A stretch of DNA of 64,000 nucleotides. Origin: an uncultured Bacteroidales bacterium (lineage in GTDB: Bacteria; Bacteroidota; Bacteroidia; Bacteroidales; F082). Positions 33,201 through 64,000 of the stretch are shown piece after piece. The notes below the pieces were generated by a model, which saw only the letters and a program-made list of their open reading frames with translations, did not search any database and was not told where the DNA came from. The first letter of the stretch is position 1, and every line of letters begins with the position of its first letter. The translations under genes were made by a program, and so were the position numbers. The stretch covers positions 1 to 64,000 of the forward strand of contig ONFO01000008.1 of assembly GCA_900317155.1 (NCBI GenBank), written 5' to 3'.

Positions 33201-36200
33201 TATTCCTGCAGGTACAACGATCTACGACGAGCTTTATGCTTTGGAGGATGGTGATCTCACTCCTGCTGAAAATGATGAAACCAAGCAACACTACGACAAC
33301 ATTCAAAACTTGGAGTGGATTGCTGTTAATCCTCTCACCGGTGGTGAAAATACGGCTGAAAATGCTAGACTGTATTACGTTACTTCTGCTCCAACCACCC
33401 CGTTGGATTACGAGCAGGAAAATGTCATCTTGTTCAACAACTTCTCGCAACTTTGGGTGCGCTACCATAAGGACGAGCCAAACACCAAGTATGGTGAGCT
33501 GCAAGGCTTCATCAGAATGGACAGTGACTATGAGCCTTACGGAACGGAGAGCTTCGCCTTTGCCCGCCCGAAGATTACCGGTGCTAAGAACAACAACATC
33601 TTGACAGGCAATCCTGCTCATCCTTATCTATACGAAAACGACAACGTTGTTGACGGTGGCTTCCTGAGCTACAAGGTTGACAATTTGGGTGTTGATTACG
33701 AGCATGGATACAACTTCTTCACTTTACAAGATAACCTCGGTGGTTGGGATTATCCTGCAGATGGTGACGACGGTGGTGATGACTACACCAAGACGAAGCA
33801 GTATCCTTATATCAATGTGTATCCGCTCACGAGAGAGGACCGCGACTTCTACCGCATGTGGGTTATCCCCAGACCAAACGGCGCGCTTTGGTATGTGGAT
33901 GGTCGTGGCGTTGGTGAAGAAACTGGCGGTTGGGGTAAGGATTTGAACCACCAAGACGGTTGGGGCCATTTCCCGGATAAGCCGAAACTGACGGTGAGCT
34001 TTAATGCTGGTGAAGATGATGCTCATAATGGTATCATCTATGACAGAACAAGAACTATCCCAGATCCTAGTGGACAAGGACAGTTGACCGGACCGTATAA
34101 GGTGTTTGATCCTTCGAAGGATATCATTTATGTGGTAGGACCTGTTTCTGCCTTGAAGGAAGAAGCTGGTGGTGAAATTAACATCAACAGGAATTGGGAA
34201 GGTGAGTATACGCTTTATCCCAATGAGGTGTATCAGTTAGACAACTACAAGTTGAAGCTCTTCCGTTATCCTGGTGGACATATGATGAGTAACGGGAAGA
34301 TCGATGGTTCTGAAACGACCACACCGCTGACCCAAGACATCCTTGGTGATATTACATTTGAGGCTTACAATGGATTGCCAGCAGGCGTTACCACTGGTCC
34401 TGGTGCCAACTACAATGCCATGATCGATGTGGATTCTATTTCGGATTCGCAACAAGGCAATATCACGCTGAACAATGTCTTGGTCGATGGTTTGTATGGC
34501 CACACTCAAATCGATGATAGTTACCATCAGATTCCGACCAGCTTTGATCAGGATGCAGTGCACAAGCCGCTTGTTGTTATGGGTGCTGGAACTACGTTGA
34601 CGCTCAAGAGCGTTGCTGAACCAGACGACCTGACGCAGGAAGGTACCGAACTGCAACGTTGCTACAACAACACCAAGGCTGATTACTACTACGATCCTGA
34701 TTATGATGCTGACGCTGACGATGATCCTGACATTGTCTTTGCTACGCGTCATGGCGGTGCTGTCTATGTACACCGTTATGCCACAATGAATGCAGAAGGC
34801 AAGGTGACCGTGAAAGACAATCTGCAGAATCTTGATCAAATTGTTTACAATGAGGATGGAGAAGAGGCTGGAACTACACCTGTCAAGATTGAGAGCAACG
34901 TCTATCTGCCTACCTTTAAAAAGCACACTTACATCACTGGTGAGTTGGATCAAAGTTCACGAATCGGTATCACCAGCCCGATTAGAAATGCGGAGCCTCA
35001 TTTCACACAGAACACCATGTCACCTATCGCAGAAGCTACTGATGCCACCATTGCATACAATGCGTGGAATAACGAGAACTACTACGATGACTTGGCCCGC
35101 TTCTTCTATAGAGGCTATGAGGACGACTTCAAGACCACCTATTATGAACAAAGTGCAGCTAACTATTCGCCGTTATTGGCTGATGCAGGAGACGATGAAA
35201 CCATCGAAAAGACTCTCTACTTCGGCTGGACTTGGAACAATGTGGTGACGAGGAAGCCAGCTGAATTTAGCTACGACAACATTGACTCGCCCGAAGACCT
35301 TGCCTGGCTGATTAGCTTGGTGAACGGTTTGAACGGCAGGGTAGCCAATGACCTTTCCGCCATTGATGTTATCGAAGAAAAGACCGACATTGACCTGGTG
35401 CAGTATGTGTGGCTCCCGGTTGGTGATCGTCTGGTTGGAACGAAGCCCTTCGGCGGCAAGTTCGACGGTCGTGGTCATATCATCGAAAACTTGAGCATTG
35501 CTTACTTGGGTAATGGTGATGGCCGTTACAACAGAAACAACTACGGTATGTTCGGTGTGGTTGACGGCGGTGTTGTTGACCGTACCTTTGTGTTGAGCGG
35601 CTATATCGAGCCCGTCAGTGACCTGAACTATAAGGGTATGGCCAATATGGGTACCTTGGTTGGTATGCTGGGTACGGATGGTGCATCGAAGCCCGCAAGC
35701 ATGGTTTCCAACAGCGAAGGTGGAGCCGACATCGTCTGCGCACAACGCGACAATGATTTCAACGTGGGTAGTGTCATCGGTTACATGGTGGAAGGCGAAC
35801 TCCATTCCTCAATGGGTATGTCCGACATCACAGCCATGAAGGCCTATCCTAACGGTGGTTATGTTGGAGGTCTGGTCGGTCGTGCCGAACCTGATGTTGA
35901 AGGTAAGGTGGCGAAGATCAACAACTCCTTCTCCAACTCCAAGATGACATTTGGCCAAACAAGTATGGTCAGTGCAGGTGGCTTGGTCGGATATAACGTG
36001 TCAACCATGCAGAACTGCTACAGCCGTCTGCAAGAAGGCAGCGCTGTTTACGACAAGTTCAAGCTCCTTGCTTTTGAGACCATGATGCCAATTACCTTGG
36101 GCCACAGCTTCCAGATGCCTGTCTATGAACAAGCCGGCTTCGACCAAGGTTGGGGCACTGCCGAGAGCATGCTGATCGATTGCTACCACTACACCAATCC

Positions 36201-38418
36201 GAAGTCCGCTGACTTCTTCCGTTATATCTATAACGACAACAAGTTGCAGAAGAAGGAAGACGGCAGTTGGAAGGATATTGAAGAAGACGAAAGCTGCCTG
36301 CTCTTCAACAACCTGAACCAGTGGGTTGAGGATAACAATGGCGAAGGACACAAGTATTCCTTGTGGGTCCGTCCGACCATCACGGGTATCAACGACGACT
36401 TCCCGATCTTGCACCTCTGTGATTGGAACAGCGAAGGCAAGCAAGGCCTTGGCGACTTCCGCAACATGGCTACCTGGCATGGTGGTCCTAAGTTGCAGTA
36501 TGCAGGTCCTGTGCGTGACTTTAATGAACTGAACTCGATGATTGAGAGAATGGGAACCAATGACTATATGTATGTCTATGGTGATATAGCAGAAGAGGTG
36601 ACGGCTGACATTATGTCGGAAGGTGTCTATAAACCCGCTCAACTCAGCGTTTATGAGCATGCTGCCATCTTGCATCCCGGCACTTTGGCTGAACATCCTC
36701 AGACCTACGTTGGCGTGACATTCGACAATTCATGTGGCCATGCCTATTCCACCCCAGAAATCAACCATATGGATAACTTCATTTTGCCACGCGACTGGCA
36801 CATGTTCTCATCTTCAATCAACAACGCGCCTTTGGGCTTCAACTATGAGGTGAATGGAGTGAACACCAACCTGTCACAATATTATCCTGAGAATCCTACA
36901 GGTGCTGCTGTCGACAATGGTGACTACTACAACAACCCGTGGCCTTATCTGCACCAGCAGGGTCCTTATGGTGAGTTCACATGGCTTAATAATGCCCAAT
37001 CGAACGATAAGATCCGTTATTGGATGAAGGGTTGGGAGAACAGCCAGAGCTTGAATGTTGAGAATCCTGAAATTGATGAGGAAAAATGGGTTGATGGTTA
37101 CTTCCCGAGTAGGGTAGATGGCGCAAGTGAATTCAGCAATAGCTGTATTGAAACAGAAGATGAATATGGTCGCTTCCCATACGGTATGGATATGTTCTGC
37201 TGGTATGAGCCCGAACCACACTGGATCAACTTCAAACGTAACGGCCCGAACCACTGGCACAGTGATGAGTATGAAGATGAACATCATCTCCACGCCCACC
37301 TGCCTTATACTGAGAATGGCATCGCCAACCAGAATGAGGATGAGCTTGTGTTCGGAAAGGGCTATATGTTTGCCATAGCTGAGAAGACCTACCTGCAAAG
37401 CCATGGATATCTGAATGCCAATAGTAATACACGAGATAGAGTTGTTACCAATACGAATAGTGCATTCGCGGGTAGTATATTCTCGGGATGGAACCTTGTT
37501 GGTAATCCGTATCACGCTTACCTTGACTTTGAGGAGTTTGCATCCGACAACAACATTGGCTCATACTATGTGATTTACGATGCTGATGGCTATCAAGACG
37601 GCCCGTCAAGTGCCTATCTCTATTATCCGCAGACAGGTTCGAATGGTGGTGCGTATGCAGATCAATTCCTGCATCCTCACCAAGGCTTCTTCGTCAAGTC
37701 GACCGATGGTAGTGCCTTGTCATTCAATGAAGGAATGACAGTAACCAGAGACGAAGCCTCTAACAGCGCGTTCCGTAGCTGGAAGCCGAACTATCCTCTG
37801 GTCAATCTCTATCTGAACAGCGAAAAAGGTTGTTCTGATGTGACGGTCATTGAGTTCCACAGACCTGAATGGGGTGGCGCAAGGAAACAGAGGGAGCTTC
37901 GTCAAGGCAATGGTTTGCTCTATGCCTACAATGATGAAGAACCTTATGCAGCCTTGTTCGTCAAGGAAGGTGCCGAAAGGGTTCCGCTGTGGTTTGAAGC
38001 TAAGGATACCGATGTGTATACCATGACTTGGAACACAGCTAACGGTGATTTCAGCAGTCTGTATCTGATTGACAACTTGACAGGCACACGCTACGATATG
38101 CTTAATAATGACAGCTATGTCTTTGAAGGTAAAGCATCAGACTATCATTCCCGTTTCTATATCACGTTCAATTGTGTTGACGTGGAAGAGAATGATGAAG
38201 ACACTGAGACCAACATAGCGTTCTTCGACGGTTCACAATGGGTGGTAACCGGTGAAGGTAATATTGAGTTGATAGACTTGCAAGGCCGCGTCCTTTGGAA
38301 TTCACGATTGAGTGGAGGCCAGAGTAGGGTAAGTGTTCCCAACGTGGCAGCAGGTCTGTATCTCTTCCGCTTGACAAATGCCAACGAAACGAAAGTCCAG
38401 AAAATAATCATTAAATAA
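24277..38418 (+). CDS. Giant (4713-aa) T9SS-exported repeat surface protein
   Basis: Signal peptide about 1-32; ATG 24286 (MNRRNF) is an alternative start. Two Fn3-like domains of the TERGICWGTSQNPT type cover about 33-232, and a third (TERGICLGTETNPT) lies near 2680-2780. A CUB-like domain (FLYFYDGDIAPSNLIG, MTVRFVSD) is around 240-370, and a chitobiase-C-like segment (GCTIHYTINGGEEYTY) near 590-650. From about 1200 to 2670 are dozens of VYGGG/VFGGG beta repeats, with a higher-order period of about 155-190 aa marked by GGGENGHV. GLUG-like repeats (GGYVGGLVGRA, AGGLVGYN) occur around 3700-3910. The last 75 residues are a T9SS type A sorting domain (IELIDLQGRVLWN ... GLYLFRLTNANE ... QKIIIK). 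Probably a cell-surface adhesin or matrix fibre; the ligand is unknown. A 92-aa membrane-tail protein follows directly. Confidence 0.9.
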   Translation: MSCMNRRNFPKLRALFALLIFSLLSVGTVWAQNAPTVTTNDATGITAITAKGNGNVTADGGATVTERGICWGTSQNPTISGNHLSSSAGTGYFAAELTGLAENTTYYVRAYATNSAGTAYGDNKTFTTKTIVDPVVTTLDVIHIRQNSAVGVARLTDQGNDPTTERGVCWSSSVTLPTLNNPNCRHAKNGVGEGDYSVSMSYIEPNTLYYMRAYAKNSKGTVVYGAVKTFHTHVHMQNGTIEVDEDGFIFTDSNADTDEPGQWYTHYEEYSVVFIPENSAYGVKIVFDSLLINNDFLYFYDGDIAPSNLIGVYTCNEYHAYKHSNSEQVSVFGLGGNIFTVTSHNYMTVRFVSDYHWRDFGWRAHVTQAAFTPQPPAVAKMACSDNSFVLLGTSKGQHSTTLKYSVGYGGAEPGAPSETYEEGTPININGDYPVKIKVMTEVKETADGDVISSAIKMYTFGDESKVIHPDAPTITGPAANSSTVTLSVVRPAALNDTWTILYTLNELEDPATSPTAQAITSTTEDPITHEVTTSGTVALPEFCMVRAVVIGTTCPEAFSEESQYLYDDTHTLYLLPPAITFDGTGSSANTIITPSTSGCTIHYTINGGEEYTYTDYSHTFVVNANDRVEAWVTKDGPYVVSPHAVATYLPSGSTPGSSSGLYGDVVYLDDRESHSLSYYSDGSQPVFSLHPVDVKITYFGNGIGNMTDSTEDGDNPTSFSANATGVMVGVAQGETQNTFVYNETLESSHYEVDDYGYTVMVPDYEGANNEYTYTTIPNPFSVRPMYTTVTSTRNIYVRGTIQSNAFGYINVTYTDVNNTLQTWSGYINWSQQQGSIFPEATLQVLAGTTVSFSLYTSNGGWADNGHIGCEVRYDNADGDVIWTGIAYYSTNGQNNPVTGSVTVQEGGPGGGQTITFTDYRGFYAWRVKRLQGVTIKDAYGNTYDENSTIFAETRLIFQIDNEYGNEVDFEALWAKAYVGTVTSNPWGQVVVSGLNTNVSYERNFVVGVTRINALNVPATYSSYYPDGTPSQSVSNTVTLITNDNNGNYTDTDRFFLYADMKFENMNFSYTQRIVGNNHYLCFGRGINTVNVPYSFEGVYTDNDHPMGPLDYTIRVESGRFNMFSFISDTYTYGNVQRPINGRYLVKGIMGSDYDRAQNDNSKLRVCCDYSNDSLNMNRLFLCYGIQGNGIENKDIETFSLVVKGGTYQESYWEYGGNGRYDQSFYVGQNFSSGYPGVRYITVKGGDFGSMNGGRGTSNYDHGHVDPNVVASSIRIKGGKFHGSVFGGAADNMTPGSRRIVITGRQDENQQPTTLVQGWVAGGCNGTGENGEMGCIDGNSYIYVGGKTVVGSEPSIMVNGTEGGNVFGAGRGVIDYWYTPPTWQQGEPHWVNQIAYVHISNVVVADDAFIFKDVYGGGFHGYVTDTSNVFIVGGTVGNNVYGGAFQHGHTDPIPATRVHIRDGNVLGSVFGGSNTLGNVGLTGANPEDDDDNNAVVWMTGGTVGTTGSFESGCVFGGSDGINTKVLSNTRVHINGGLVVNNVYGGGNLGQVEGKATVKIEGGEVGDEHDDVNPTKGNVYGGGKGVAAAGGDTYVNEAEVDILDSYIMGSVFGGGENGHVLTNTVVNVNGGQVGGYPGDIFGEGEHADCANPYHGSVYGGGSGLNLDSNGNMVGVDPEDGWVKGNSTVNIVSGAHILRNVYGGSNVASVGLTAGTETIDGKTYLIPVPYTGLATVNISGGIIGTDGEDDIYNGIVASNGMVFGSSHGKAVIGDLNYAHVNSTHVTISAGADIRGSVFGGGDDGFVLDSTFVEIMDGTIGTPLTAEECVTDDFGSGAIIYRGNVYGGGRGIDPENGQISTIAGFVKKNTRVMMTGGLVRHNVYGGGSLACVGFKDRPETGIATVYINGGQVGSTGLNNGRVFGSGRGMPATPGDDELMKYASLAFTNNTYVTVEGTAKVMGSVYGGGENGHVAKKTTVTVDGVATIGSEKMYPFTGNVFGGGRGVDRYGTSLTDFSRTAGKVYEQTEVNINGGQVYHAVYGGGTMASVGQIITDDGNGGYGTPSDTPIYYGPDDETVADAETGFLKLRPDIDNNGLAVVNINHGAIVGDDGDGDGMVFGSARGMAGADYKHFAYTGNTDVNINGGQIMGSVYGGGENGHVLGSTDVDVVDGTIGFVGSHNILMGNVFGGGCGTDLDLSGNYSRTAGWVKFNTNVTIEGAQTYRNVYGGGNLASVGIAENHDAEFSGRANVIVKDGVVGSDGNENGHVFGSGYGRPAGEGNQQIFSELAFVKNSFVTIQDNADVKGSVFGSGENGHVRQNTHVFVTGGTIGIDGTTGYEGNVYGGGRGKDQIGGEFSITSGRTYGNTFVDLSGGKVNGSVYGGGRMASVGTYPERGDIPADPDYNNGAESGRSTVYIHGDVIIGNENTAIRGGNVYGGAKGLVGSDYAQLAYLKNTEVIIDGATITGSVFGGGENGHVSENTKVVVNDGTIGFDGGNEYKGNVFGGGRGIDRDASGNQTETAGIVQGSTRVFFEGGTAYGSVFGGGNASLVSLEKVVNINSGTVKQDVFGGCKQVSVEMADKHPGTKTVNMRGGQVNGSVYGCSNKSIDGNFEPGHEKDWTAFVNISGGTILGSVHGLGYAGEVNGSSLVNIGVNAIAEKVDGEWSDLSKRNVYNIYFDDRAYLPTVLTSGVFDVTGTTAEVDSYVTSIGESDVTERGICLGTETNPTQETEVDGITGDGRGYYSYNLSGLTAGTKYYVRAYAKNDKGTAYGAEISFTTNAAEPEFASGDIDRDEHEGKIAIENAVSIGNSVYAGSNYFGTQGSNVNDWTHHDATGYTNIYIDGTEYNTASNSGNSMNIGGGVFGSGTHCEAGLSGHNVLMREYGHRNTENNGHGDEFTEATRSLTTIQRCQNLLLDNVNINLTGLNDINTTYSTSKIYSVVKVDEVMYLTNASALSVGGEAGPAYMDSIHCLRSMHLNIPAGTTIYDELYALEDGDLTPAENDETKQHYDNIQNLEWIAVNPLTGGENTAENARLYYVTSAPTTPLDYEQENVILFNNFSQLWVRYHKDEPNTKYGELQGFIRMDSDYEPYGTESFAFARPKITGAKNNNILTGNPAHPYLYENDNVVDGGFLSYKVDNLGVDYEHGYNFFTLQDNLGGWDYPADGDDGGDDYTKTKQYPYINVYPLTREDRDFYRMWVIPRPNGALWYVDGRGVGEETGGWGKDLNHQDGWGHFPDKPKLTVSFNAGEDDAHNGIIYDRTRTIPDPSGQGQLTGPYKVFDPSKDIIYVVGPVSALKEEAGGEININRNWEGEYTLYPNEVYQLDNYKLKLFRYPGGHMMSNGKIDGSETTTPLTQDILGDITFEAYNGLPAGVTTGPGANYNAMIDVDSISDSQQGNITLNNVLVDGLYGHTQIDDSYHQIPTSFDQDAVHKPLVVMGAGTTLTLKSVAEPDDLTQEGTELQRCYNNTKADYYYDPDYDADADDDPDIVFATRHGGAVYVHRYATMNAEGKVTVKDNLQNLDQIVYNEDGEEAGTTPVKIESNVYLPTFKKHTYITGELDQSSRIGITSPIRNAEPHFTQNTMSPIAEATDATIAYNAWNNENYYDDLARFFYRGYEDDFKTTYYEQSAANYSPLLADAGDDETIEKTLYFGWTWNNVVTRKPAEFSYDNIDSPEDLAWLISLVNGLNGRVANDLSAIDVIEEKTDIDLVQYVWLPVGDRLVGTKPFGGKFDGRGHIIENLSIAYLGNGDGRYNRNNYGMFGVVDGGVVDRTFVLSGYIEPVSDLNYKGMANMGTLVGMLGTDGASKPASMVSNSEGGADIVCAQRDNDFNVGSVIGYMVEGELHSSMGMSDITAMKAYPNGGYVGGLVGRAEPDVEGKVAKINNSFSNSKMTFGQTSMVSAGGLVGYNVSTMQNCYSRLQEGSAVYDKFKLLAFETMMPITLGHSFQMPVYEQAGFDQGWGTAESMLIDCYHYTNPKSADFFRYIYNDNKLQKKEDGSWKDIEEDESCLLFNNLNQWVEDNNGEGHKYSLWVRPTITGINDDFPILHLCDWNSEGKQGLGDFRNMATWHGGPKLQYAGPVRDFNELNSMIERMGTNDYMYVYGDIAEEVTADIMSEGVYKPAQLSVYEHAAILHPGTLAEHPQTYVGVTFDNSCGHAYSTPEINHMDNFILPRDWHMFSSSINNAPLGFNYEVNGVNTNLSQYYPENPTGAAVDNGDYYNNPWPYLHQQGPYGEFTWLNNAQSNDKIRYWMKGWENSQSLNVENPEIDEEKWVDGYFPSRVDGASEFSNSCIETEDEYGRFPYGMDMFCWYEPEPHWINFKRNGPNHWHSDEYEDEHHLHAHLPYTENGIANQNEDELVFGKGYMFAIAEKTYLQSHGYLNANSNTRDRVVTNTNSAFAGSIFSGWNLVGNPYHAYLDFEEFASDNNIGSYYVIYDADGYQDGPSSAYLYYPQTGSNGGAYADQFLHPHQGFFVKSTDGSALSFNEGMTVTRDEASNSAFRSWKPNYPLVNLYLNSEKGCSDVTVIEFHRPEWGGARKQRELRQGNGLLYAYNDEEPYAALFVKEGAERVPLWFEAKDTDVYTMTWNTANGDFSSLYLIDNLTGTRYDMLNNDSYVFEGKASDYHSRFYITFNCVDVEENDEDTETNIAFFDGSQWVVTGEGNIELIDLQGRVLWNSRLSGGQSRVSVPNVAAGLYLFRLTNANETKVQKIIIK

Positions 38419-54988: not shown

Positions 54989-57900
54989 ATGAAAAGAAGC
55001 TTTGTCCTGTTGGCCATGTTCCTTGTCCTGACGGTTTCGGTCTTCGCAAAAAAAGTTGAAGTTCAAACCGCCAGACATGCAGCCCAGTCTTTTCTGAACG
55101 CTAACATGGACACGCCTCCCGAAATCAGCTTGATTGATTTCACTGGCCAAGAGTCATTCCTGGGCTTTTATGTGTTTGGCAACAACCGCTGTTTCGTTAT
55201 CATTGCTGCCGATGATTGCGTGCACCCGATATTGGGGTATTCTACTGACTGTGCTTTTGTTACCAATGAGATGCCAGCAAACACTTTTGCCTGGCTGAAA
55301 GCCTACGATGAAGAAATCGCTTACGTGTCGGAAAGCAGATTGGAAGCTGATGATGCAATCCGTTCGGAATGGGATAGTCTCTTGGATGGCAGGGGATTGG
55401 AGCCGAAATCAAGGAGCAGCGTCAGTCCGCTCCTCAGAACAAGATGGAATCAAGGTATGCCTTTCAACAATCTTTGTCCTGCCGACCCTAACGCAACTGA
55501 TGGTCATGTTTTGGCAGGATGTGTTGCAACGGCCATGGCTCAGATTATGAACTATTGGGAACATCCTACCAGAGGTTCAGGTACGTATTCCTACACGCCT
55601 CAAAGCCATCCGGAATATGGGGTGCAGTTTGCGGATTTCAGGAACACGAACTATGATTGGGATCATATGAAGAATGTGTATTCAAGAGGCTATTCGGATG
55701 CTGAAGCTAACGCTGTCGCCACCTTGGTGTACCATTGCGGCGTGTCTGTCGATATGGATTATGGTCCAGAGGTTAGCACGGCTTCCACACAAAAAGTGCC
55801 TGTCGCGTTGAATACCTATTTCGATTATAGCGACAACATGAATTTGAAGCAAAAGTCATACATCACCAACAATGGCAGCGTTCATGTCATCTATACCGAT
55901 GCCCAATGGAGATCCATGCTGAAAACTGAGTTGAATGCCCATCGTCCCCTCTATTATTCAGGGGGGTATTACATAGCTAAGGAGAGCGGCTCACATGCTT
56001 TTGTGTGTGACGGCTATGATGCGAACAACTTCTTCCATTTCAACTGGGGCTGGGGTGGTGCGTATGACGGCTATTATGCTATCGGAGCCCTGAATCCAGG
56101 CGTAGGCCCGACGGGGCAGTTCAACCAGTGGAATTACGCTCTTTTCGGATGCAGCCCCAAGGCTCCGTCTATCAATCCTCCCTCAGGCGTGAATGCTACT
56201 GTCAACGGACGGAATGTCAGTGTAAGCTGGAACAGCGTGAGCAATGCCGTTTCCTATAAACTGTATCGTGACGGAGATTTGGTGGCCAACCTGACGAATA
56301 CCAATTACACAGAGGTTAATGTCAGTTACGGGATGCATTCCTATTATGTGAAGAGTGTGAAATCCAATGGGGTGATGTCAATGAAATCAAACGATGCCGT
56401 GGCCGATGTGCATTTTTCGGGGCCGGTTCCAACCAATTTGCAGGCATCGGTCAACAACAATGATGTCAGCCTTTCTTGGCAGTCTCAAATTCCCGTGAAT
56501 GCGGTACTGCAATATGGCTCAGGGAATTGCATCGGTGGCTTTGGGTATGATGAAGGTGGCGTTTATTGGGCGCAACGTTATCCTGTGTCGATATTGGATG
56601 ACTATGCGGGGATGGCAGTCCAGAAGGTGTCGTTTTATTCGAGGTGTAATGCCAATTACACGCTTTTCATATACAAGGGCGATGAAACGAATACGACCGA
56701 GCTGGTTTATCAGAAAAACCAGAATGCGGGCGCAAACAACTGGCAAGACATCATCCTTCCCAATCCCGTTACGATTGATTACACCCAAGACCTTTGGATT
56801 GTGCTATATTGCGACCAAAACAGTCCGGCTTCCTACTGTTCCTATTCTGGAGCAGAAGTCGAGGATGCCTCGTTGTATTCCCGATTGGGGAATGCCTGGA
56901 GTTTTTGTACCGACAAGTCATGGCTGATTAAGACCTACATCACCGATGGTACTTATACGTACAACCTATATCGCAACGGTACTGCTTTGGCTACACAGTT
57001 GACTGGAAACACGTATTCGGATGCAAATTTGCCTGAAGGCTCCTATAACTATCATGTCACGACCAACTATTTTGGTGGAGAATCCGACCCGTCAAATTCT
57101 GTCAATGTGCAGGTTGAGAGCTTGACTTTCACAATTGGTGCTTCTGCCAATCCCAGCACTGGCGGTTCGGTGACTGGTGCGGGCATTTATACTTATGGGG
57201 AGACTTGCACCTTGTCGGCATCGTCCAATCTGGGTTATACCTTTGTCAACTGGACAGAAAACGGCACTCCGGTCTCAACCAATCCAACCTATTCTTTCAC
57301 TGTGACGGAATCTGCCAATTATGTCGCGCATTTCGAGCTAGACAACTACCTTGTCACAGTTTCAGCCAGTCCTTCAAATGGAGGCTCGGTTTCTGGAGGC
57401 GGCACATTCCATTATGGTGATAATTGCACCGTCCATGCCACGGCTAATTCAGGTTTCAATTTCATTAACTGGACCATTAACGGAGCTCCTGTCTATAACA
57501 ACTCGACCTATTCTTTTACGGTCACCACGGATTGCCAACTGGTGGCCAACTTCACCATGCAGAGCTATGTCATCACTGCGATGGCCAACCCGACAGAAGG
57601 AGGCTCGGTTACGGGCAGTGGAGGCTATAATTACGGCGACAACTGCACCTTGACAGCTACGGCCAATATGGGATACACCTTCCAAAAATGGACAAAAAAC
57701 GGGGCGACGGTTTCCTATTCACCCACCTATTCCTTTACTGTGACCGAATCAGCGACATACTATGCGTACTTCACGGCACAGTCGTTTACCGTGTCTGTTT
57801 TGGCCGACCCAAGCGATGGCGGTTCGGTTGGTGGCGGCGGTACTTATAATTTTGGACAGAGTTGTACCGTCCATGCCACGGCCAATCCAGGATATTCGTT

Positions 57901-58468
57901 TGACCATTGGTTGGAGAATGGGAATATAGTATCCAACCAAGCCGACTATAGCTTTACCATCACAGGTAATAGGACCTTGGTAGCCCACTTCGCTTTGGTG
58001 ACTTATGAAATCTCGGCAGAGACCAATCCTGAAGGTGTAGGTGTCATTACTGGTACAGGTCTGTATCATTACGGGGAGACCGCAACGCTGACCGTTGAGC
58101 CTTATTCCCATTACAATTTCCGGAGTTGGTCGGAAAATGGCGAGTTCATCACGGAAGATTCGACTTTCCAGATTGTGGTCACAGGGCCTCATCATTTCAT
58201 CGCCAACTTTATTTATTTCGATGCCCTTGAAGAAAGTTCTTCGATTATTGAAATCTTCCCTAATCCGTCCAATGATATCCTATATGTGCAGGGTAAAGAC
58301 CTGAGAAGGTTAACCGTGTATAATGTGATTGGGCAGGTGATGGACGACTTGGAAGTAGTGGGGCAGAAGCCGCTGTATATTGATGTCCATGATTATGGAC
58401 AGGGTCTCTATATCCTCCATGTTCAAACGAGGAAGGGACCGATAGTTATGAAATTTGTTAAAGAGTAA
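54989..58468 (+). CDS. C10 (streptopain-like) cysteine protease with InlB-B-type repeats and T9SS tail
   Basis: 1159 aa. Signal peptide (ends SVFA, then KK), a Spi-type propeptide (about 25-130) and the C10 peptidase domain (about 140-390) with nucleophile Cys178 in LAGCVATAMAQIMNYW, catalytic His336 in GSHAFVCDGYD and FNWGWGGAYDGYY. Next come Fn3-like segments (about 395-480, with another near 650-710) around a beta-sandwich. Five tandem repeats of about 72 aa (about 710-1075; e.g. GGSVSGGGTFHYGDNCTVHA, HWLENGNIV) resemble divergent InlB B-repeats. It ends in a T9SS type A domain (IEIFPNPSNDILYV ... GLYILHVQTRKG). Expected to be secreted and self-processed; PrtT/SpeB-like proteases degrade host proteins. 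Followed after 14 nt by the MscS gene. Confidence 0.92.
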   Translation: MKRSFVLLAMFLVLTVSVFAKKVEVQTARHAAQSFLNANMDTPPEISLIDFTGQESFLGFYVFGNNRCFVIIAADDCVHPILGYSTDCAFVTNEMPANTFAWLKAYDEEIAYVSESRLEADDAIRSEWDSLLDGRGLEPKSRSSVSPLLRTRWNQGMPFNNLCPADPNATDGHVLAGCVATAMAQIMNYWEHPTRGSGTYSYTPQSHPEYGVQFADFRNTNYDWDHMKNVYSRGYSDAEANAVATLVYHCGVSVDMDYGPEVSTASTQKVPVALNTYFDYSDNMNLKQKSYITNNGSVHVIYTDAQWRSMLKTELNAHRPLYYSGGYYIAKESGSHAFVCDGYDANNFFHFNWGWGGAYDGYYAIGALNPGVGPTGQFNQWNYALFGCSPKAPSINPPSGVNATVNGRNVSVSWNSVSNAVSYKLYRDGDLVANLTNTNYTEVNVSYGMHSYYVKSVKSNGVMSMKSNDAVADVHFSGPVPTNLQASVNNNDVSLSWQSQIPVNAVLQYGSGNCIGGFGYDEGGVYWAQRYPVSILDDYAGMAVQKVSFYSRCNANYTLFIYKGDETNTTELVYQKNQNAGANNWQDIILPNPVTIDYTQDLWIVLYCDQNSPASYCSYSGAEVEDASLYSRLGNAWSFCTDKSWLIKTYITDGTYTYNLYRNGTALATQLTGNTYSDANLPEGSYNYHVTTNYFGGESDPSNSVNVQVESLTFTIGASANPSTGGSVTGAGIYTYGETCTLSASSNLGYTFVNWTENGTPVSTNPTYSFTVTESANYVAHFELDNYLVTVSASPSNGGSVSGGGTFHYGDNCTVHATANSGFNFINWTINGAPVYNNSTYSFTVTTDCQLVANFTMQSYVITAMANPTEGGSVTGSGGYNYGDNCTLTATANMGYTFQKWTKNGATVSYSPTYSFTVTESATYYAYFTAQSFTVSVLADPSDGGSVGGGGTYNFGQSCTVHATANPGYSFDHWLENGNIVSNQADYSFTITGNRTLVAHFALVTYEISAETNPEGVGVITGTGLYHYGETATLTVEPYSHYNFRSWSENGEFITEDSTFQIVVTGPHHFIANFIYFDALEESSSIIEIFPNPSNDILYVQGKDLRRLTVYNVIGQVMDDLEVVGQKPLYIDVHDYGQGLYILHVQTRKGPIVMKFVKE

Positions 58469-58482
58469 GTGATAGTTGACCT

Positions 58483-59616
58483 ATGAATAGATTGAGTAAA
58501 AAATGGCTTTCCTCCGACAGCGGGTTTACACAGGTGTTGGGGGCGATGATTTTAAAAGGACGTTGGGGCCTTACCTTGCTGTTGCTGGTGATGGTAGCGC
58601 TTTCTTTGTTGTCGCTTCACAATTGGCAAAACGCAGCTTTTTTGAGTGCCTCGAGTTGCTTGACTTCTATCTATGGTTTCATTTCAACCGCACTCAGGAG
58701 CTCTTGGTATTGGTTGGTGCTTCTGACCCTCCTTATGTTCCTGGTTATCGGTGTGTGTAATACCATGACGAACATCTATAGCCTGCGCAAGAATGAAACA
58801 GGCATTACATGGTGCCAGATCATGATTTTGATTTTTGTCGGGATATGGTTGATCGGATTATTATGCATCATCAAAATCCAGAAAGAATCTGGCTATTTCA
58901 TTATCTTTGGCGTTCTTGGCACACTGATGACCTGGATATTCCAAGACACGATAAAAGGCGTGGTGGCGTTTGTTCACTTACGACTTAACCACCTGCTCTA
59001 TATCGATGACTGGATTCAGGTGCCCAAGCTCAATGTCGATGGTGAAGTGAAGCGCATCACGCTGACGACGGTGACCATTTACAATTGGGACACGACCACT
59101 TCTTCCATACCCACCAGCGTGTTGCACAACGACCATTTCATCAACCTCCAGAGAATGACTTCTGGAAAGACCTATGGCCGACAGATGCTGAAGACCTTTA
59201 TCCTCGACACAGGAGGATTCCATCCGCTTACCGCTGAGGAAATTGAATCGCTGAAGCAAAAGAAGGAGGTCAAGGCCTATTTGTTGGATGAAGATTTCAA
59301 AGTAGGTGAGCTCAACGCCCACCTGTTCCGCTTATATGTGTTCCATTGGCTGATGAACCATCCTTACGTCTCTCAGGAGCCGCGTTTGGTGGTACGCTGG
59401 CTGGAACAGAAAGAAACAGGTCTGCCCTTGCAGATTTACGGTTTCATCATGGAAGGCGGTGTCTTGGCCTACGAATGGCAGCAGTCACAGATCATCGAAC
59501 ATATCGTCGAAGCCTTGGATTGGTTTGGCCTTCAGCTCTACCAGCGTCCTTCGAGCCATGATGTCAGCAATTTGACCGAGAAAGTGTTGATGAGTAGAAA
59601 GGAGGAAACGCTATGA
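58483..59616 (+). CDS. MscS-family mechanosensitive channel (YbdG-like)
   Basis: 377 aa. Four to five transmembrane helices within residues about 25-155 are followed by the MscS pore/beta domain: FQDTIKGVVAFVHLRLNHL, YIDDWIQVPKLNVDGEVKRI, VTIYNWDTTTSSIPTS and the mixed C-terminal domain. The NWDTTTSSIPT segment is the YbdG/MscM-type variant. It would release solutes under membrane tension. Its stop overlaps the ATG of the RyR-like protein by 4 nt, pointing to joint function. Confidence 0.9.
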   Translation: MNRLSKKWLSSDSGFTQVLGAMILKGRWGLTLLLLVMVALSLLSLHNWQNAAFLSASSCLTSIYGFISTALRSSWYWLVLLTLLMFLVIGVCNTMTNIYSLRKNETGITWCQIMILIFVGIWLIGLLCIIKIQKESGYFIIFGVLGTLMTWIFQDTIKGVVAFVHLRLNHLLYIDDWIQVPKLNVDGEVKRITLTTVTIYNWDTTTSSIPTSVLHNDHFINLQRMTSGKTYGRQMLKTFILDTGGFHPLTAEEIESLKQKKEVKAYLLDEDFKVGELNAHLFRLYVFHWLMNHPYVSQEPRLVVRWLEQKETGLPLQIYGFIMEGGVLAYEWQQSQIIEHIVEALDWFGLQLYQRPSSHDVSNLTEKVLMSRKEETL

Positions 59617-60731
59617 GTAAATCTATTGAAAAGGAAAAGCCACTCGAGTATTTGAGGCATAAGAATGGCGACAGCTACTCGGCTGAAACGATACGCAACT
59701 GGTATGTGGCTCGTGCCTACGTCCTCGACCGTTTGAAGGATGTTGTCATCAGCCCTACATCTAACGTGCATTTGCATGCGGTGGTCACGAGCGATAGCCC
59801 TTTGATGTTGTCAGTCGCCCGTGAAGTGGCTTTGTTGGCGCACTTTGCCAATTTTGACGAGGCAAGCGGTAGCAATCGTTCAGTCATTACCGTAGTGAGC
59901 AATAAAGACAATATCGTAGAAGAGCTGAAGAAAGAGGAATACCTCTGTAACTTGTTGGATTACTGCAAGTATTCGGTTTATGGCGCTGCACCAGTTAATG
60001 CCGACTCCTTCCTTGATGTTGAATTGGATATTGTGAGAACCTTATCGGCTGTTGACAAGAACGGTCTTGTCGTCGAATTGTCGGACAATGATGCCAATGA
60101 GTTTCTTAAGACTGCCAGTATGGATGACATCATGAGCATCGACACCCGCAAGGCGGTGTATGTGGGACGAATCTACGAACTGGGTGTGCTGATTGACAAC
60201 CTGCCTGCCGAAGACATACACTCTCCCAGACGCTACAAGATGGCTTTGGACACGTTTGAGCACAACTTCCTGCAAAAGCCGATGACGCAGCTTATCAAAC
60301 CTGAAAAATGGAAAGCCGATTTAATCCAAGCCAAGAACGGTTTTTCGAGCATTTGCTGCGCCGACTGTTTCGAGTTGCGGGAAAGAGGAATGAAACCGTA
60401 CAGTAACAAGAAAAAGGATTCAGATAAAGCATGGGAGGACCATATAGAAGCGTTATCGGTCAGTGAACATGCCCGTTGGGTGACTGAGCGATTGATTATG
60501 GGCGTGCGTTTCTATACCAAGGAAGAACGCATTCGCGACGAGCGGTCGTTTGGTGGCGCCAAAAAGCAATACCGTAACCGAATGAAAAAAAACACCTCTG
60601 ATCCCGTCAGCGTCGATATTTGTTCATTTGCGGAGTTGCGCAGAATCAATCCCGGCGACATGAAATACGACAGCTTCTTGATGTTGGCCATTCCCAAGAT
60701 TTTGGAGCGGATTAAGGAAGAAGATGAATGA
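59613..60731 (+). CDS. Protein with C-terminal RyR-like domain, coupled to MscS
   Basis: 372 aa, soluble. Residues about 280-370 fit the prokaryotic RyR-domain pattern: SVSEHARWVTERLIMGVRF, an insert, then DICSFAELRRINPGDMKYDSF and AIPKILERI. Residues about 48-105 (LHAVVTSDSPLMLSVAREVA, RSVITVVSN) look like a Rossmann-type alpha/beta unit. A CxxC pair (ICCADC) is in the middle. RyR domains in bacteria are thought to bind small ligands. Translational overlap with a mechanosensitive channel suggests a regulatory subunit (inference). The RyR call is by pattern only. Confidence 0.6.
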   Translation: MSKSIEKEKPLEYLRHKNGDSYSAETIRNWYVARAYVLDRLKDVVISPTSNVHLHAVVTSDSPLMLSVAREVALLAHFANFDEASGSNRSVITVVSNKDNIVEELKKEEYLCNLLDYCKYSVYGAAPVNADSFLDVELDIVRTLSAVDKNGLVVELSDNDANEFLKTASMDDIMSIDTRKAVYVGRIYELGVLIDNLPAEDIHSPRRYKMALDTFEHNFLQKPMTQLIKPEKWKADLIQAKNGFSSICCADCFELRERGMKPYSNKKKDSDKAWEDHIEALSVSEHARWVTERLIMGVRFYTKEERIRDERSFGGAKKQYRNRMKKNTSDPVSVDICSFAELRRINPGDMKYDSFLMLAIPKILERIKEEDE

Positions 60732-60751: not shown

Positions 60752-62314
60752 ATGAAAAAAACATTACTATTGCTATTTGCCTTGCTGACCATGTTGTCGG
60801 CTTCTGCCCAAAAGATATGGACGGTGAGCACAGTTCCCAACACCCGCTTGCAAAGTGACGACATCCACGTCTCCGACCCCGATGGCTATCTCTCCGACAG
60901 CACCGAGATGACCATCAACACGGCACTTTGCGCCATCAGCGACAAGGCTGATGTCTTCTTGGTGACCTTGACTTCCATCGGTGATGCCGAAACCAAGTCT
61001 TTCGCTACGGAGTTGTTCAATTATTGGGGCATTGGCGATGCCGAAACCAACAATGGTGTGCTGCTTTTGTTCGTTGAAGATCAACATTCCTTGGAGTTTG
61101 AGACAGGCTATGGTGCTGAGTCAACCCTCACCGATGCCAAGTGTCAGCGGATATTTACCAATACCATCGTGCCTTTTTTCAAGGCTGGAGATTATGAGGG
61201 TGGGCTTTGTGCAGGTGTGGCTGACATCGTGGAAGTTTATGGTGGCGAAATTCCCATGGGGCTGAAATCGACTTTGCCGGCTGTCAATCACGATGATGAA
61301 GAACAAGGGCTTGGCGATGATGTTCCCATCTTTTTTGTGTTTTTTGCTATGGTCTTGTTTGTGATGCCAATTGTAGGTATTGCATTTTGGCGGCGTAAGC
61401 AAAGGTTGGGAAAGAAATCGGTTACCGACACCTACCATGCGGTGGAAGAGAAGGGAGCCACCTATATCGATGGCTTCAAGACCACCTGGTCGGGATCACC
61501 ATGGGAAGGCAAGGGCTGTCTCGGTGGCCTGTTGATTGGCTTTTCCATCTTCGTTATCTTATTCCTGGTCATAGGCTATATGGGCGTGCGCTATCCGGAT
61601 TTAGAGGAAAATACATTGTTCAATAGGGTCTCCATCATAACCTTATTATTGTATCTCACATGGGTTTGTTTCCGCCATAACCACCGTGTCTTGAAAACGG
61701 CCAAAACGCTGGCCAAGCAGTCCATCAATCCACGGTCGGTCTATCAGGCAGCCTACGAGAATAAGAGTACCAGGTTGGCCACCTGGATGGCACCATGGAT
61801 AGGTTGGATTTACCACCGTATTTACAAGAAACAGTTGAGTCATAGCGAAGAATGCACTTGTCCCAAATGTAGTGGCCCTATGAACAAATACGCTGGTTTT
61901 AGTCTGCCTGAGAATCATTTGGTCGAGGAAAAGGTAGGAGCATTGAAGTTCACGCCATACCGTTGTGGCAATGGCCATGTGGTTGTGGTTAAGGAGCATG
62001 GTATCAGGTATTCCCGCTTCAAAACCTGTTCAAAATGTGGCGCTTACACCATGATGACGACAGACACCAAGACGATCAAAAACGCTGACTATACGCATAG
62101 TGGAGAGCTATTGGAAACCTGCGTCTGCCAGCATTGCGGCGAGACACTCACCAAGACGGTGGTGATACCCAAGTTGGTGCATTACAGCGATAGCAGCGGC
62201 AGCTCTTCCAGCCACGGAAAGGGTTATTCAAGCCATTCCTCCAGCCATCACTCATCGGGTGGCTCCTTCGGCGGCGGCCATAGTGGCGGCGGCGGTTATT
62301 CGGGGAAATGGTAG
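60752..62314 (+). CDS. TPM-domain membrane protein with zinc-ribbon-like motifs
   Basis: 520 aa. Signal peptide (ends SASA, then QK), a periplasmic TPM domain (about 38-175; VSDPDGYLSDS, GIGDAETNNGVLLLFV, FETGYGAESTL), then hydrophobic helices at about 192-215, 252-274 and 290-305. Three CxxC pairs (CTCPKCSGP, CSKCGAY, CVCQHCGE) form possible zinc ribbons. The tail is Ser/Gly/His-rich (GGSFGGGHSGGGGYSGKW), as in other TPM-domain proteins. TPM proteins have been linked to photosystem repair or phosphatase activity elsewhere; here the function is unknown. Last gene of the 54989-62314 co-directional run. Confidence 0.88.
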   Translation: MKKTLLLLFALLTMLSASAQKIWTVSTVPNTRLQSDDIHVSDPDGYLSDSTEMTINTALCAISDKADVFLVTLTSIGDAETKSFATELFNYWGIGDAETNNGVLLLFVEDQHSLEFETGYGAESTLTDAKCQRIFTNTIVPFFKAGDYEGGLCAGVADIVEVYGGEIPMGLKSTLPAVNHDDEEQGLGDDVPIFFVFFAMVLFVMPIVGIAFWRRKQRLGKKSVTDTYHAVEEKGATYIDGFKTTWSGSPWEGKGCLGGLLIGFSIFVILFLVIGYMGVRYPDLEENTLFNRVSIITLLLYLTWVCFRHNHRVLKTAKTLAKQSINPRSVYQAAYENKSTRLATWMAPWIGWIYHRIYKKQLSHSEECTCPKCSGPMNKYAGFSLPENHLVEEKVGALKFTPYRCGNGHVVVVKEHGIRYSRFKTCSKCGAYTMMTTDTKTIKNADYTHSGELLETCVCQHCGETLTKTVVIPKLVHYSDSSGSSSSHGKGYSSHSSSHHSSGGSFGGGHSGGGGYSGKW

Positions 62315-62447
62315 GTTAGTTGTTTGTTAGTAGTTGGTAGTGCAAGTAAAACCGTTTTTAATATGTAATTATCATGGTAGATATGAGGGATAATTATCAT
62401 TTTGGAGAATAAAGCATAAGTAGATGAGGAAAATTAATTTACATATT

Positions 62448-62524
62448 GGACACGAGACTACGAGACTGCGAGACTACGGGACATTGGCTCGTCTCGAAGT
62501 CCCGAAGTCACGTGTCCCGAAGTC
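62448..62524 (+). repeat. GRGACNNN octamer tandem array, inverted
   Basis: GAGACTAC, GAGACTGC, GAGACTAC and GGGACATT in series, then the complementary orientation (CGTCTCGAAGTCCCGAAGTC, GTGTCCCGAAGTC). It fills much of the 62315-62567 spacer upstream of the Macro-TIR gene. No gene is seen in this spacer. Confidence 0.8.
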
Positions 62525-62567
62525 AAAGGATATTGCAGTTTAATTTTGAACAGTTACATAAAAGAAT

Positions 62568-63659
62568 ATGGAACAAGTGAAAGAGTATCACATTAACAAC
62601 TCAACCATCAAAATAATCTTCGGCAATATCGTGGATAGTCAAGCCGAAGTAATTGTCAGCAGTGACGACAGTGATATAACTATGGGAGGTGGAGTCTCGA
62701 TGGCTATCCGACGTAAAGAAGGAACCGAAGCCATCCAACTTGATGTAAAGAAAAAGACTCCCGCAGAAATTGGTGATGTTGTTGTTTCAACAGCGGGCAC
62801 ACTCCTGCAAAAATTCATTTTCCATGTTATAACCATTGACTATAATAGTATTAACCAGTCGAATATTCCTGTGGCGGTTAGCAAAGAGGACATACATCAG
62901 TATATTATTGGACATTCCATAGACAAATGCTTTTTGCTGTTACAGGCAATGGATTTAAAGTCCATCGCCTTTCCGTCCATAGGAGCGGGTGTAGCTGGAA
63001 TTCCTTTCGAGAAAGTGGCGAGTGCCATGTCTGAAGCAATCGTGAGGAATCTCAGAAAGACAAACAAATCCATTGGTGTTGAATTGTATCTTTATGATGG
63101 ATTCAGCATGATGGAGCGTTGGAATTGTCTGCCTATGTTTGAACAGTTTTCAGTACAGGAAGCCATCGCCAAAATGATAAACAAGCAAAGCAGCGAACGG
63201 TTGATTATGGATGAAGTCATAGCTCCCCAACCATTAGAGGCGACACCTGACATTGAAAATGATGTATTCATCAGCTATTCCAGGAAAGATTCTGATGTTG
63301 TCAAGCAAATCTACGAATGGTTGGAGAAGGCGGGCTATAAATGCTGGATGGATGTTGATGGAATGTTCAGTGGTATTTCATTCAAGAAGGTCATTGTTGA
63401 TGCGATAAAGCATTCAAAGATATTGCTATTCATGTCATCGGAGAATTCCAACAAGTCACGAAATGTCATAAGCGAGGTTTCTATTTCGGTAGAGTATGGG
63501 AAAAAGATAATTCCTGTTCGACTGGATATGTCGCCCTATTCAGAGAGTATAGAATACGACATCATCAATCATGACTATGTGGCTTATGACAAATCAAAGA
63601 TGGAGGAGTCAAACAGAGAGATGCTAAAGAAAATCGTATCAACGTTGAAAATGGTATGA
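62568..63659 (+). CDS. Macro-TIR fusion protein
   Basis: 363 aa, soluble. Residues about 10-185 are a Macro domain: IKIIFGNIVDSQAEVIVSSD, DITMGGGVSMAI (37-47), AEIGDVVVSTAG and the phosphate loop FPSIGAGVAGIPFEKVA (135-151). Residues about 231-345 are a TIR domain: DVFISYSRKDSDVV, CWMDVDGM, AIKHSKILLFMSSENSNKS and VISEVSISVEYGKKIIPV, with Glu303 in the position of the NADase glutamate. Macro domains bind ADP-ribose-type ligands and TIR domains make them from NAD+; this pairing occurs in Thoeris-type antiphage defence as separate proteins. Here both are in one chain. Immunity is inferred, not shown. Confidence 0.88.
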   Translation: MEQVKEYHINNSTIKIIFGNIVDSQAEVIVSSDDSDITMGGGVSMAIRRKEGTEAIQLDVKKKTPAEIGDVVVSTAGTLLQKFIFHVITIDYNSINQSNIPVAVSKEDIHQYIIGHSIDKCFLLLQAMDLKSIAFPSIGAGVAGIPFEKVASAMSEAIVRNLRKTNKSIGVELYLYDGFSMMERWNCLPMFEQFSVQEAIAKMINKQSSERLIMDEVIAPQPLEATPDIENDVFISYSRKDSDVVKQIYEWLEKAGYKCWMDVDGMFSGISFKKVIVDAIKHSKILLFMSSENSNKSRNVISEVSISVEYGKKIIPVRLDMSPYSESIEYDIINHDYVAYDKSKMEESNREMLKKIVSTLKMV

Positions 63660-63898: not shown

Positions 63899-64000
63899 AT
63901 GGAGCTCGATAAACAAGAATTCAAGGCGCTTGTTATGCTTTATGCTGATACCATAGATGGAAACAACCAATCGGAAGAAGTGCAATTGAGCAGACAGTTG
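63899..64000 (+). CDS. Partial small protein, truncated by window edge
   Basis: ATG 63899 opens a frame that is open to the end of the window (34 residues: MELDKQEFKALVMLYADTI, then DGNNQSEEVQLSRQL). The start is supported by a well-placed promoter. The KALVMLYAxxxDGxxxxEE pattern recalls small TerB-like or EF-hand-like helical proteins. Too little is present to name it. Confidence 0.65.
   Translation, partial: MELDKQEFKALVMLYADTIDGNNQSEEVQLSRQL

Follow-up and report, generated by a model that had tools for sequence, protein, structure and literature searches.

In type II Thoeris, a TIR enzyme that cleaves NAD+ (a TIR NADase) is combined with a Macro domain that reads a signal of the ADP-ribose (ADPR) type, and the Macro domain of ThsA binds ADPR or IAD and oligomerises (PMC11204291). 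For sensor-TIR effectors, the sections of PMC12162218 and PMC12847820 consulted describe an NADase site that forms upon oligomerisation and, for Cat1 and SpbK, a binding step that stacks the TIR domains into an active NADase. In this study, we describe a protein of 363 amino acids (aa), Macro-TIR, in which a Macro and a TIR domain share one chain. It is encoded at 62568..63659 on the + strand of a 64,000-nucleotide stretch of DNA (the window), which comprises positions 1-64000 of contig C23 in the genome of an uncultured Bacteroidales bacterium (G000, the own genome; 3.8 Mb, 65 contigs). In our estimate there is an even chance that Macro-TIR is a single-chain, ligand-gated TIR NADase acting in antiphage or stress defence.

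The Macro-TIR open reading frame (ORF) is intact, with an ATG start and a TGA stop, and its assignment is supported by the ORF, Pfam, alignment with four further intact copies and purifying selection. The Macro domain (62667..63029, +; Pfam residues 34-154, structural matches over about residues 1-203) matched PF01661 at E 3.1e-15 (56.6 bits, cut-off 22; profile positions 5-118 of 118), and the TIR domain (63264..63545, +; residues 233-326) matched PF13676 TIR_2 at E 2.6e-21 (76.8 bits, cut-off 28), with the Pfam models ThsB_TIR (E 7.4e-7) and TIR (E 1.9e-6) also above their own cut-offs. Between the domains lies a predicted linker helix (residues 184-209; 63117..63194, +), followed by a low-confidence stretch to residue 229 in a model that is itself of low confidence. 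An earlier note, made from the letters of the window, had read a complete Macro and a complete TIR domain in one chain, and the Pfam search bore this out for both domains; the motifs that it quoted for the two domains are present in the 363-aa protein, residue 303 is a glutamate as it stated, and the lack of a transmembrane domain agrees with the hydropathy scan (highest 19-residue mean 1.43, no window above 1.6). Its suggestion that a neighbour at 63899 might act as effector fell away, this being an ORF of merely 40 codons. In the own genome, Pfam found eight TIR_2 matches, four of them on the Macro-TIR contig between 63 and 99 kb, and two Macro matches (PF01661).

The fusion of the two domains is more than chance, since four more intact copies (75%, 42-43% identity) share the Macro-TIR arrangement and since each domain, wherever dN/dS could be computed, has a value of about 0.05. 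Eight copies were recorded, namely the own copy, L014, L015/G124 (counted once), L016, G101, G115, G479 and G482; five of them (own, L014, G101, G115 and G479) are intact and full-length, and the L016 copy is cut by a contig end ahead of its TIR domain. L014 derives from Prevotella sp. HAN019 (75% identity to the own Macro-TIR, genome contig scan), L015 from RUG11609, an uncultured Bacteroidia bacterium (92%), and L016 from Prevotellaceae HAN088 (75%); G101 and G115, from the own genus, to which G124 also belongs, are 42-43% identical to the own protein, and G479 and G482 come from families other than the own one. Between G101 and G115, dN/dS was 0.052 for Macro, 0.383 for the linker (residues 186-230) and 0.044 for TIR; between the own copy and L014, saturation of synonymous sites affected Macro and linker, while the value for TIR was 0.055. 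Purifying selection acts on both domains and is much weaker on the linker.

The Macro half differs from hydrolytic macro domains in its NAAN motif. SSDD (residues 31-34; 62658..62669, +) stands at the position of their NAAN, with GGGVS next (residues 40-44). NAAN is missing in all eight Macro-TIR copies, whereas of 27 stand-alone relatives 26 retain it and one has NAAK. The five Macro-TIRs in the comparison table have SSDD or SSDG together with GGGVS or GGGIS; SSDD is also the motif of G115 and G124, and SSSD that of L016. In the second loop, a Tyr or Phe is found in 27/27 stand-alone relatives, and no aromatic residue in the five tabulated Macro-TIRs. Three closer stand-alone macros from the phylum survey keep NAAN and also have no aromatic residue in this loop, thus the loss of NAAN alone is special to the fusion family. 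When the order was surveyed using the Macro alignment, matches turned up in 41 of 384 genomes. Three were Macro-TIRs, with E values no higher than 1.3e-68; the remaining 38 did no better than E 1.3e-14, and 27 of them were examined for NAAN. An alignment placed Asn30 and Asp40 of OiMacroD (numbers inferred from the titles of mutant structures), which we take to be catalytic, on Asp34 and Ser44 of Macro-TIR. The catalytic residues of MacroD are presumably the Asn of NAAN and the Asp of GGGVD, and Macro-TIR has neither, with SSDD and GGGVS in their stead. The alignment shows a macro fold with both glycine-rich loops kept. Since NAAN has been lost in 8/8 copies and the glycine loops are retained, the Macro domain is probably a non-hydrolytic ADPR reader in which MacroD chemistry has been lost.

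In the TIR half, Glu303 (codon 63474..63476, +), the predicted catalytic glutamate, is invariant in the alignment and is kept in 7/7 copies with a TIR domain (the five aligned copies, G482 and G124). When Macro-TIR is aligned to the SPARTA TIR chain 8j7s, Glu303 coincides with a Glu, residue 77 by hand count, which we take to be catalytic. SARM1 and SPARTA were among the structural matches of the TIR domain, obtained with a weak model, and the top PADLOC match of Macro-TIR was a TIR from the short-Argonaute family (E 3.7e-13), with partial ThsB matches lower down. The hallmark of TIR NADases, a TIR fold with the predicted catalytic Glu, is thus present by sequence, which suggests that Macro-TIR has NADase activity.

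If Macro-TIR is a ligand-gated NADase, its Macro domain, turned non-hydrolytic, would bind an ADPR-type ligand, and binding would drive self-association through the Macro domain and the linker helix. The TIR domains brought together in this way would complete an NAD-cleaving site around Glu303, and the output would be either NAD depletion or an ADPR-type signal for neighbouring proteins. Ligand binding, oligomerisation and a defence role are suggested here by analogy, and Macro-TIR may be a small immune switch triggered by a nucleotide signal. The earlier note had likewise proposed a one-chain TIR enzyme with an ADPR-sensing Macro domain; the fusion proved real and sensing is the best reading of it, but the further idea that the chain makes and erases its own signal was not supported.

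A number of observations weigh against a ligand-gated NADase. The structure prediction is weak (mean pLDDT 61.8, pTM 0.47), with pLDDT below 50 in the predicted Macro loops (residues 32-52 and 138-143), and its best structural match is a MacroD-type macrodomain, a member of a hydrolase family. Some macro families hydrolyse through other residues, so that the loss of NAAN is no proof of lost hydrolysis. Two of the eight copies are broken, G124 by a frameshift within Macro and G482 by a stop in the linker. The G482 copy looks solitary, since about 19 kb to the left and to the right of it gave no match to any of 12 reference neighbours; G479 has no reference neighbour on the side seen, the other side reaching the contig end 557 nt away. 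No conserved ligand-making partner was found beside Macro-TIR. Finally, in a TIR tree of 49 rows the seven TIR domains of the fusion fell into three groups at an unresolved fork, with three changes needed, and were united in 0% of 200 bootstrap trees.

Macro-TIR is rare and patchily distributed. Genomes were surveyed at the level of nearest relatives, genus, family, order, class and phylum, in samples that overlap. Among the nearest relatives, 47/100 genomes gave some match, and both domains were found in the own genome only. A copy was present in 4/99 genomes of the genus survey and 3/393 of the order survey, the own genome included in each, and the family survey with the Macro half gave 4/173. 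At E 1e-12 the order survey matched 27/393 genomes, those beyond the three copies by one domain; the class survey at E 1e-15 returned 1/395, the own genome, and the phylum survey with the Macro half at E 1e-16 returned 4/326, the own genome and three more distant stand-alone macros. A phage, plasmid or viral origin was considered and rejected: 3 of 50,697 phage records and 17 of 72,556 plasmid records matched, each through a single domain and none covering more than 48% of Macro-TIR, and two scans of viral contigs returned no Macro-TIR relatives.

The own copy is nearer to the Prevotella-named L014 (75%) than to the copies of its congeners G101 and G115 (42-43%), and this, together with the copies in other families (G479, G482) and the patchy presence, suggests that Macro-TIR has been transferred laterally. 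The GC content of the gene is 40.4%, as against 47.7% for the window. In a tree, the seven Macro domains (G124 left out) formed one clade with support 100/100 and a long stem. Separate origins of the fusion were set aside on account of this single Macro clade and of the TIR tree, which after removal of six long rows did not reject a single clade (p-AU 0.426). Flanking direct repeats were also rejected as the boundary of a mobile cassette: one shared 11-mer had three matches (at most one mismatch) where 0.84 were expected, and 6 of 100 shuffles also reached three. Upstream of the gene, the leader TTATCATTTTGGAGA (62394-62408) is common to the relatives, and between this shared leader and the start codon lies an interspersed palindromic repeat of 136 bp (62425..62560, +). 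Counting the repeat itself, the own genome contains 34 matches to it, with one other full-length match at 85%. The hairpin of the repeat has a z score of -3.21, and the repeat is absent upstream of the Macro-TIR gene in L014 and L015.

Macro-TIR might instead be a recruiter, in which the Macro domain binds a protein or nucleic acid that carries ADP-ribose and thereby directs the TIR NADase to it, so that a modification rather than a free nucleotide is sensed. The modification would come from an ADP-ribosyltransferase of phage or host or from a sirtuin; we regard a recruiter as unlikely. The best match of the Macro profile among PDB sequences was a PARP14 macro chain (E 8.7e-19), ahead of TTHA0132 (E 1.5e-17), and macroH2A and PARP9 were among the top structural matches of the weak model. 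In the part of PMC11204291 consulted, MacroH2A-like macros are said to be non-catalytic binders of ADPR metabolites and of ADP-ribosylated proteins, and SIR2-TIR genes lie near three Macro-TIR copies. However, no ADP-ribosyltransferase turned up in the neighbours scanned, the copy in G482 looks solitary, and sequence cannot separate readers of free from readers of attached ADPR.

The surroundings of the gene bear on what Macro-TIR might signal to. In what follows, the hydrophobic, WD40-like, sigma-factor-like, kinase-like, formylglycine-enzyme-like and housekeeping-type labels, as well as the TTHA0132 grouping, were assigned by reading sequences. On the same strand ahead of Macro-TIR lie genes for an MscS-type channel (58483..59616; PF00924, E 1.6e-9), with homologues about 41-42% identical near the G101 and G115 copies; for a protein with a RyR-like C-terminal part below threshold (59613..60731), which overlaps MscS by 4 nt and is 35% identical to a G115 neighbour; and for a TPM-domain protein (60752..62314; PF04536, E 1.4e-32), a broken relative of which adjoins the L015/G124 copy. 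The protein of 59613-60731 had no Pfam match up to E 1. A six-sequence profile of the RyR-like parts matched true RyR domains with a probability of 52% (E 1.5e-4; controls 0.1 and 0.2%), but the two sub-groups of the profile reached merely 9% (the two-sequence group of 59613-60731) and 21%, thus the label is kept at RyR-like. The next long ORF past Macro-TIR starts at contig position 64072, outside the window, and encodes a SIR2-TIR protein, so that the order in the own genome is MscS, RyR-like, TPM, Macro-TIR and then, past the window, SIR2-TIR, nSTAND1, RCK/RyR-like and further genes including TIRs. The RCK/RyR-like protein (L011:12645-14708) has 687 aa, a hydrophobic N-terminus, a RyR-like C-terminus and an RCK match below cut-off (E 0.0015), while the RCK match of its G101 relative is above cut-off; a 519-aa relative follows at L011:14948-16507.

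Related gene sets recur elsewhere in varying order. In G115, MscS and RyR-like genes are adjacent as in the window (58483-60731) and are followed by SIR2-TIR, an nSTAND1-type gene, Macro-TIR 17 nt on, RhuM and two TIR genes, RhuM and the second TIR being named by likeness to G101; the nSTAND1-type protein is 28% identical to the own nSTAND1 and has WD40-like repeats. In G101, a TIR-WD40 protein (TIR part E 6.7e-5) lies 17 nt before Macro-TIR, RhuM and TIR genes follow, and upstream there are one more TIR protein, a RyR-like gene and MscS; no SIR2-TIR or nSTAND1 match was found across the 33 kb compared. In L014, a RyR gene lies 85 nt ahead of Macro-TIR, a second RyR gene is present, and SIR2-TIR and an nSTAND1-type gene follow about 6 kb past it; at L014:14153-15635 there is a sigma-factor-like gene and then a protein of 312 aa that has a RyR domain (E 2.8e-32) at its C-terminus. 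RyR matches above cut-off were found in four of seven genomes searched, in three of them within about 6 kb of Macro-TIR; both matches of G482 are on a contig other than that of its Macro-TIR, and G000, G124 and G479 had none above cut-off. The earlier note had looked to homologues for a defence context, and this is seen in part: the loci around G000, G101, G115 and L014 are TIR-rich, with SIR2-TIR/nSTAND1 genes in G000, G115 and L014. The neighbours of G482, however, and those of G479 on its visible side, are of housekeeping type only.

Such neighbours could themselves be the readers, in which case Macro-TIR would be a signal maker whose TIR produces a specific ADPR-type signal for RyR-like/MscS or SIR2-TIR/nSTAND1 proteins to read, with Macro serving product feedback only. 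The G000 and G115 copies do lie with all four of these gene types, the latter 17 nt from nSTAND1, and the L014 copy lies 85 nt past a true RyR gene; yet gene order varies, G482 (about 19 kb) and G479 (side seen) are without such neighbours, and the likeness to RyR in G000 does not reach the threshold, and we thus hold a signal maker to be decidedly unlikely. A broader proposal, which we consider highly doubtful, is that the locus is an ADPR signalling circuit with an ion-channel output and with Macro-TIR as its one-protein positive-feedback switch. TIR proteins would make cyclic or conjugated ADPR, Macro-TIR would bind such a product and make more of it, and RyR or RyR-like proteins, one overlapping the MscS gene and others fused to a membrane/RCK-type protein, would read or clear the signal. 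If true, the circuit would parallel cyclic ADPR and the animal ryanodine receptor.

Several other genes of the region deserve mention in their own right. The own region has two instances of a SIR2-TIR gene with an nSTAND1-type gene after it (L011:4073-8825, and L012:17822 to L013:3296, the L013 gene being named by likeness to that of L014); the pair is found again in L014 and G115, and is thus a recurrent two-gene module. A 593-aa protein at L012:3158-4939 has a C-terminal DUF4062 (PF13271, E 1.3e-17), described in the part of PMC13174449 consulted as a TIR-like NADase family with an antiphage system. The window also contains a 4713-aa ORF (24277-38418) with no Pfam match above cut-off (best E 6.4e-6) and a C10-family peptidase (54989-58468) that carries InlB-like repeats as well as a Por secretion tail.

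Make and erase in one chain, which the earlier note had raised, would require a hydrolytically active Macro, which would keep the TIR product in check or repair ADP-ribosylation as a DarG-like self-antidote. In DarTG, the macro hydrolase DarG lies beside the ADP-ribosyltransferase DarT, and Macro-TIR has weak partial DarG matches (E 2.1e-4 and E 0.0043); no DarT model was among the matches of the neighbours scanned. In the part of PMC9503650 consulted, the macro domains found in TIR antiphage systems are predicted to regulate these systems by targeting cyclic ADPR, and the MacroD-type top structural match points the same way. On the other hand, the substitutions at the positions of OiMacroD Asn30 and Asp40, and the loss of NAAN in 8/8 copies where 26/27 stand-alone relatives keep it, lower its chances, the NAAN and Asp residues being gone across the fusion family. 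NCBIfam also ranked 'ADP-ribose-binding protein' models first (E 3.6e-19; 69 bits against a cut-off of 252) ahead of deacetylase models (E 5.4e-12), every macro match lying far under its cut-off, and we therefore consider a hydrolase very improbable. A protein that plays no part in defence, whether a scaffold or an accidental fusion, and that acts for example in NAD or ADPR metabolism, would suit the solitary-looking G482 and G479 copies and the fact that no phenotype was found in the literature examined, but is scarcely credible given the selection on both domains and given that a patchy distribution, broken copies and surroundings rich in TIR genes are expected of conflict genes.

No report of a Macro-TIR fusion was found in the literature searched, and an earlier mention within the nucleotide-centred conflict-system literature may exist. 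The sections consulted of PMC9503650, PMC12700824, PMC12847820, PMC8195603, PMC9092222 and PMC7159879 contain no Macro-TIR protein, and a figure legend in the consulted part of PMC12700824 includes Macro and TIR in the domains that partner SIR2-like proteins. Macro-TIR is small and encoded by a single gene, and offers a natural Macro scaffold with its catalytic motif replaced family-wide, useful for asking which ADPR isomer is read.

Among proteins sharing one half of the fusion, the TTHA0132-like stand-alone macros (2dx6; L128-L130, with E values of 1.5e-23 to 2.2e-19 against the Macro profile) resemble Macro-TIR in a second loop without an aromatic residue, but keep NAAN, have no TIR domain and, in L128-L130, adjoin histidine kinase-like genes. 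The closest TIR protein found in the own genome (G000:C48 17144-17533) is 48% identical over 133 residues; it differs in having an N-terminal TIR, a membrane segment and a formylglycine-enzyme-like part, and no Macro.

The parallel with type II Thoeris, which the earlier note had drawn, stands as a functional one and fails on architecture. While ThsB TIR and ThsA Macro are separate chains and ThsA has transmembrane segments, the 363-aa protein and the four other intact copies are single chains, and Macro-TIR has no such segment, thus we conclude that it is not a member of type II Thoeris. No ThsA model was among its 15 PADLOC matches, in which ThsB matches were partial only, nor in 10 neighbours scanned with PADLOC; PF01661, with its two matches in the own genome, may miss divergent ThsA macros; no Thoeris-labelled chain was among the 56 PDB sequences matching the Macro profile, and a ThsA-type macro was not named among the 50 structural matches listed for the weak model.

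By analogy, Macro-TIR would rather belong with CARF-TIR (Cat1), SAVED-TIR and TIR-STING, in which a ligand-binding domain type is likewise fused to TIR, and its Macro domain would be the part that binds the ligand. These sensor-TIR effectors read cyclic di- or oligonucleotides made by enzymes of other families, whereas the sensor of Macro-TIR is a Macro domain, so that the expected ligand is an ADPR derivative, the product class of TIR enzymes. If true, an ADPR-gated TIR would couple a TIR enzyme to the class of molecule that it makes, by self-amplification or by activation from one TIR to another.
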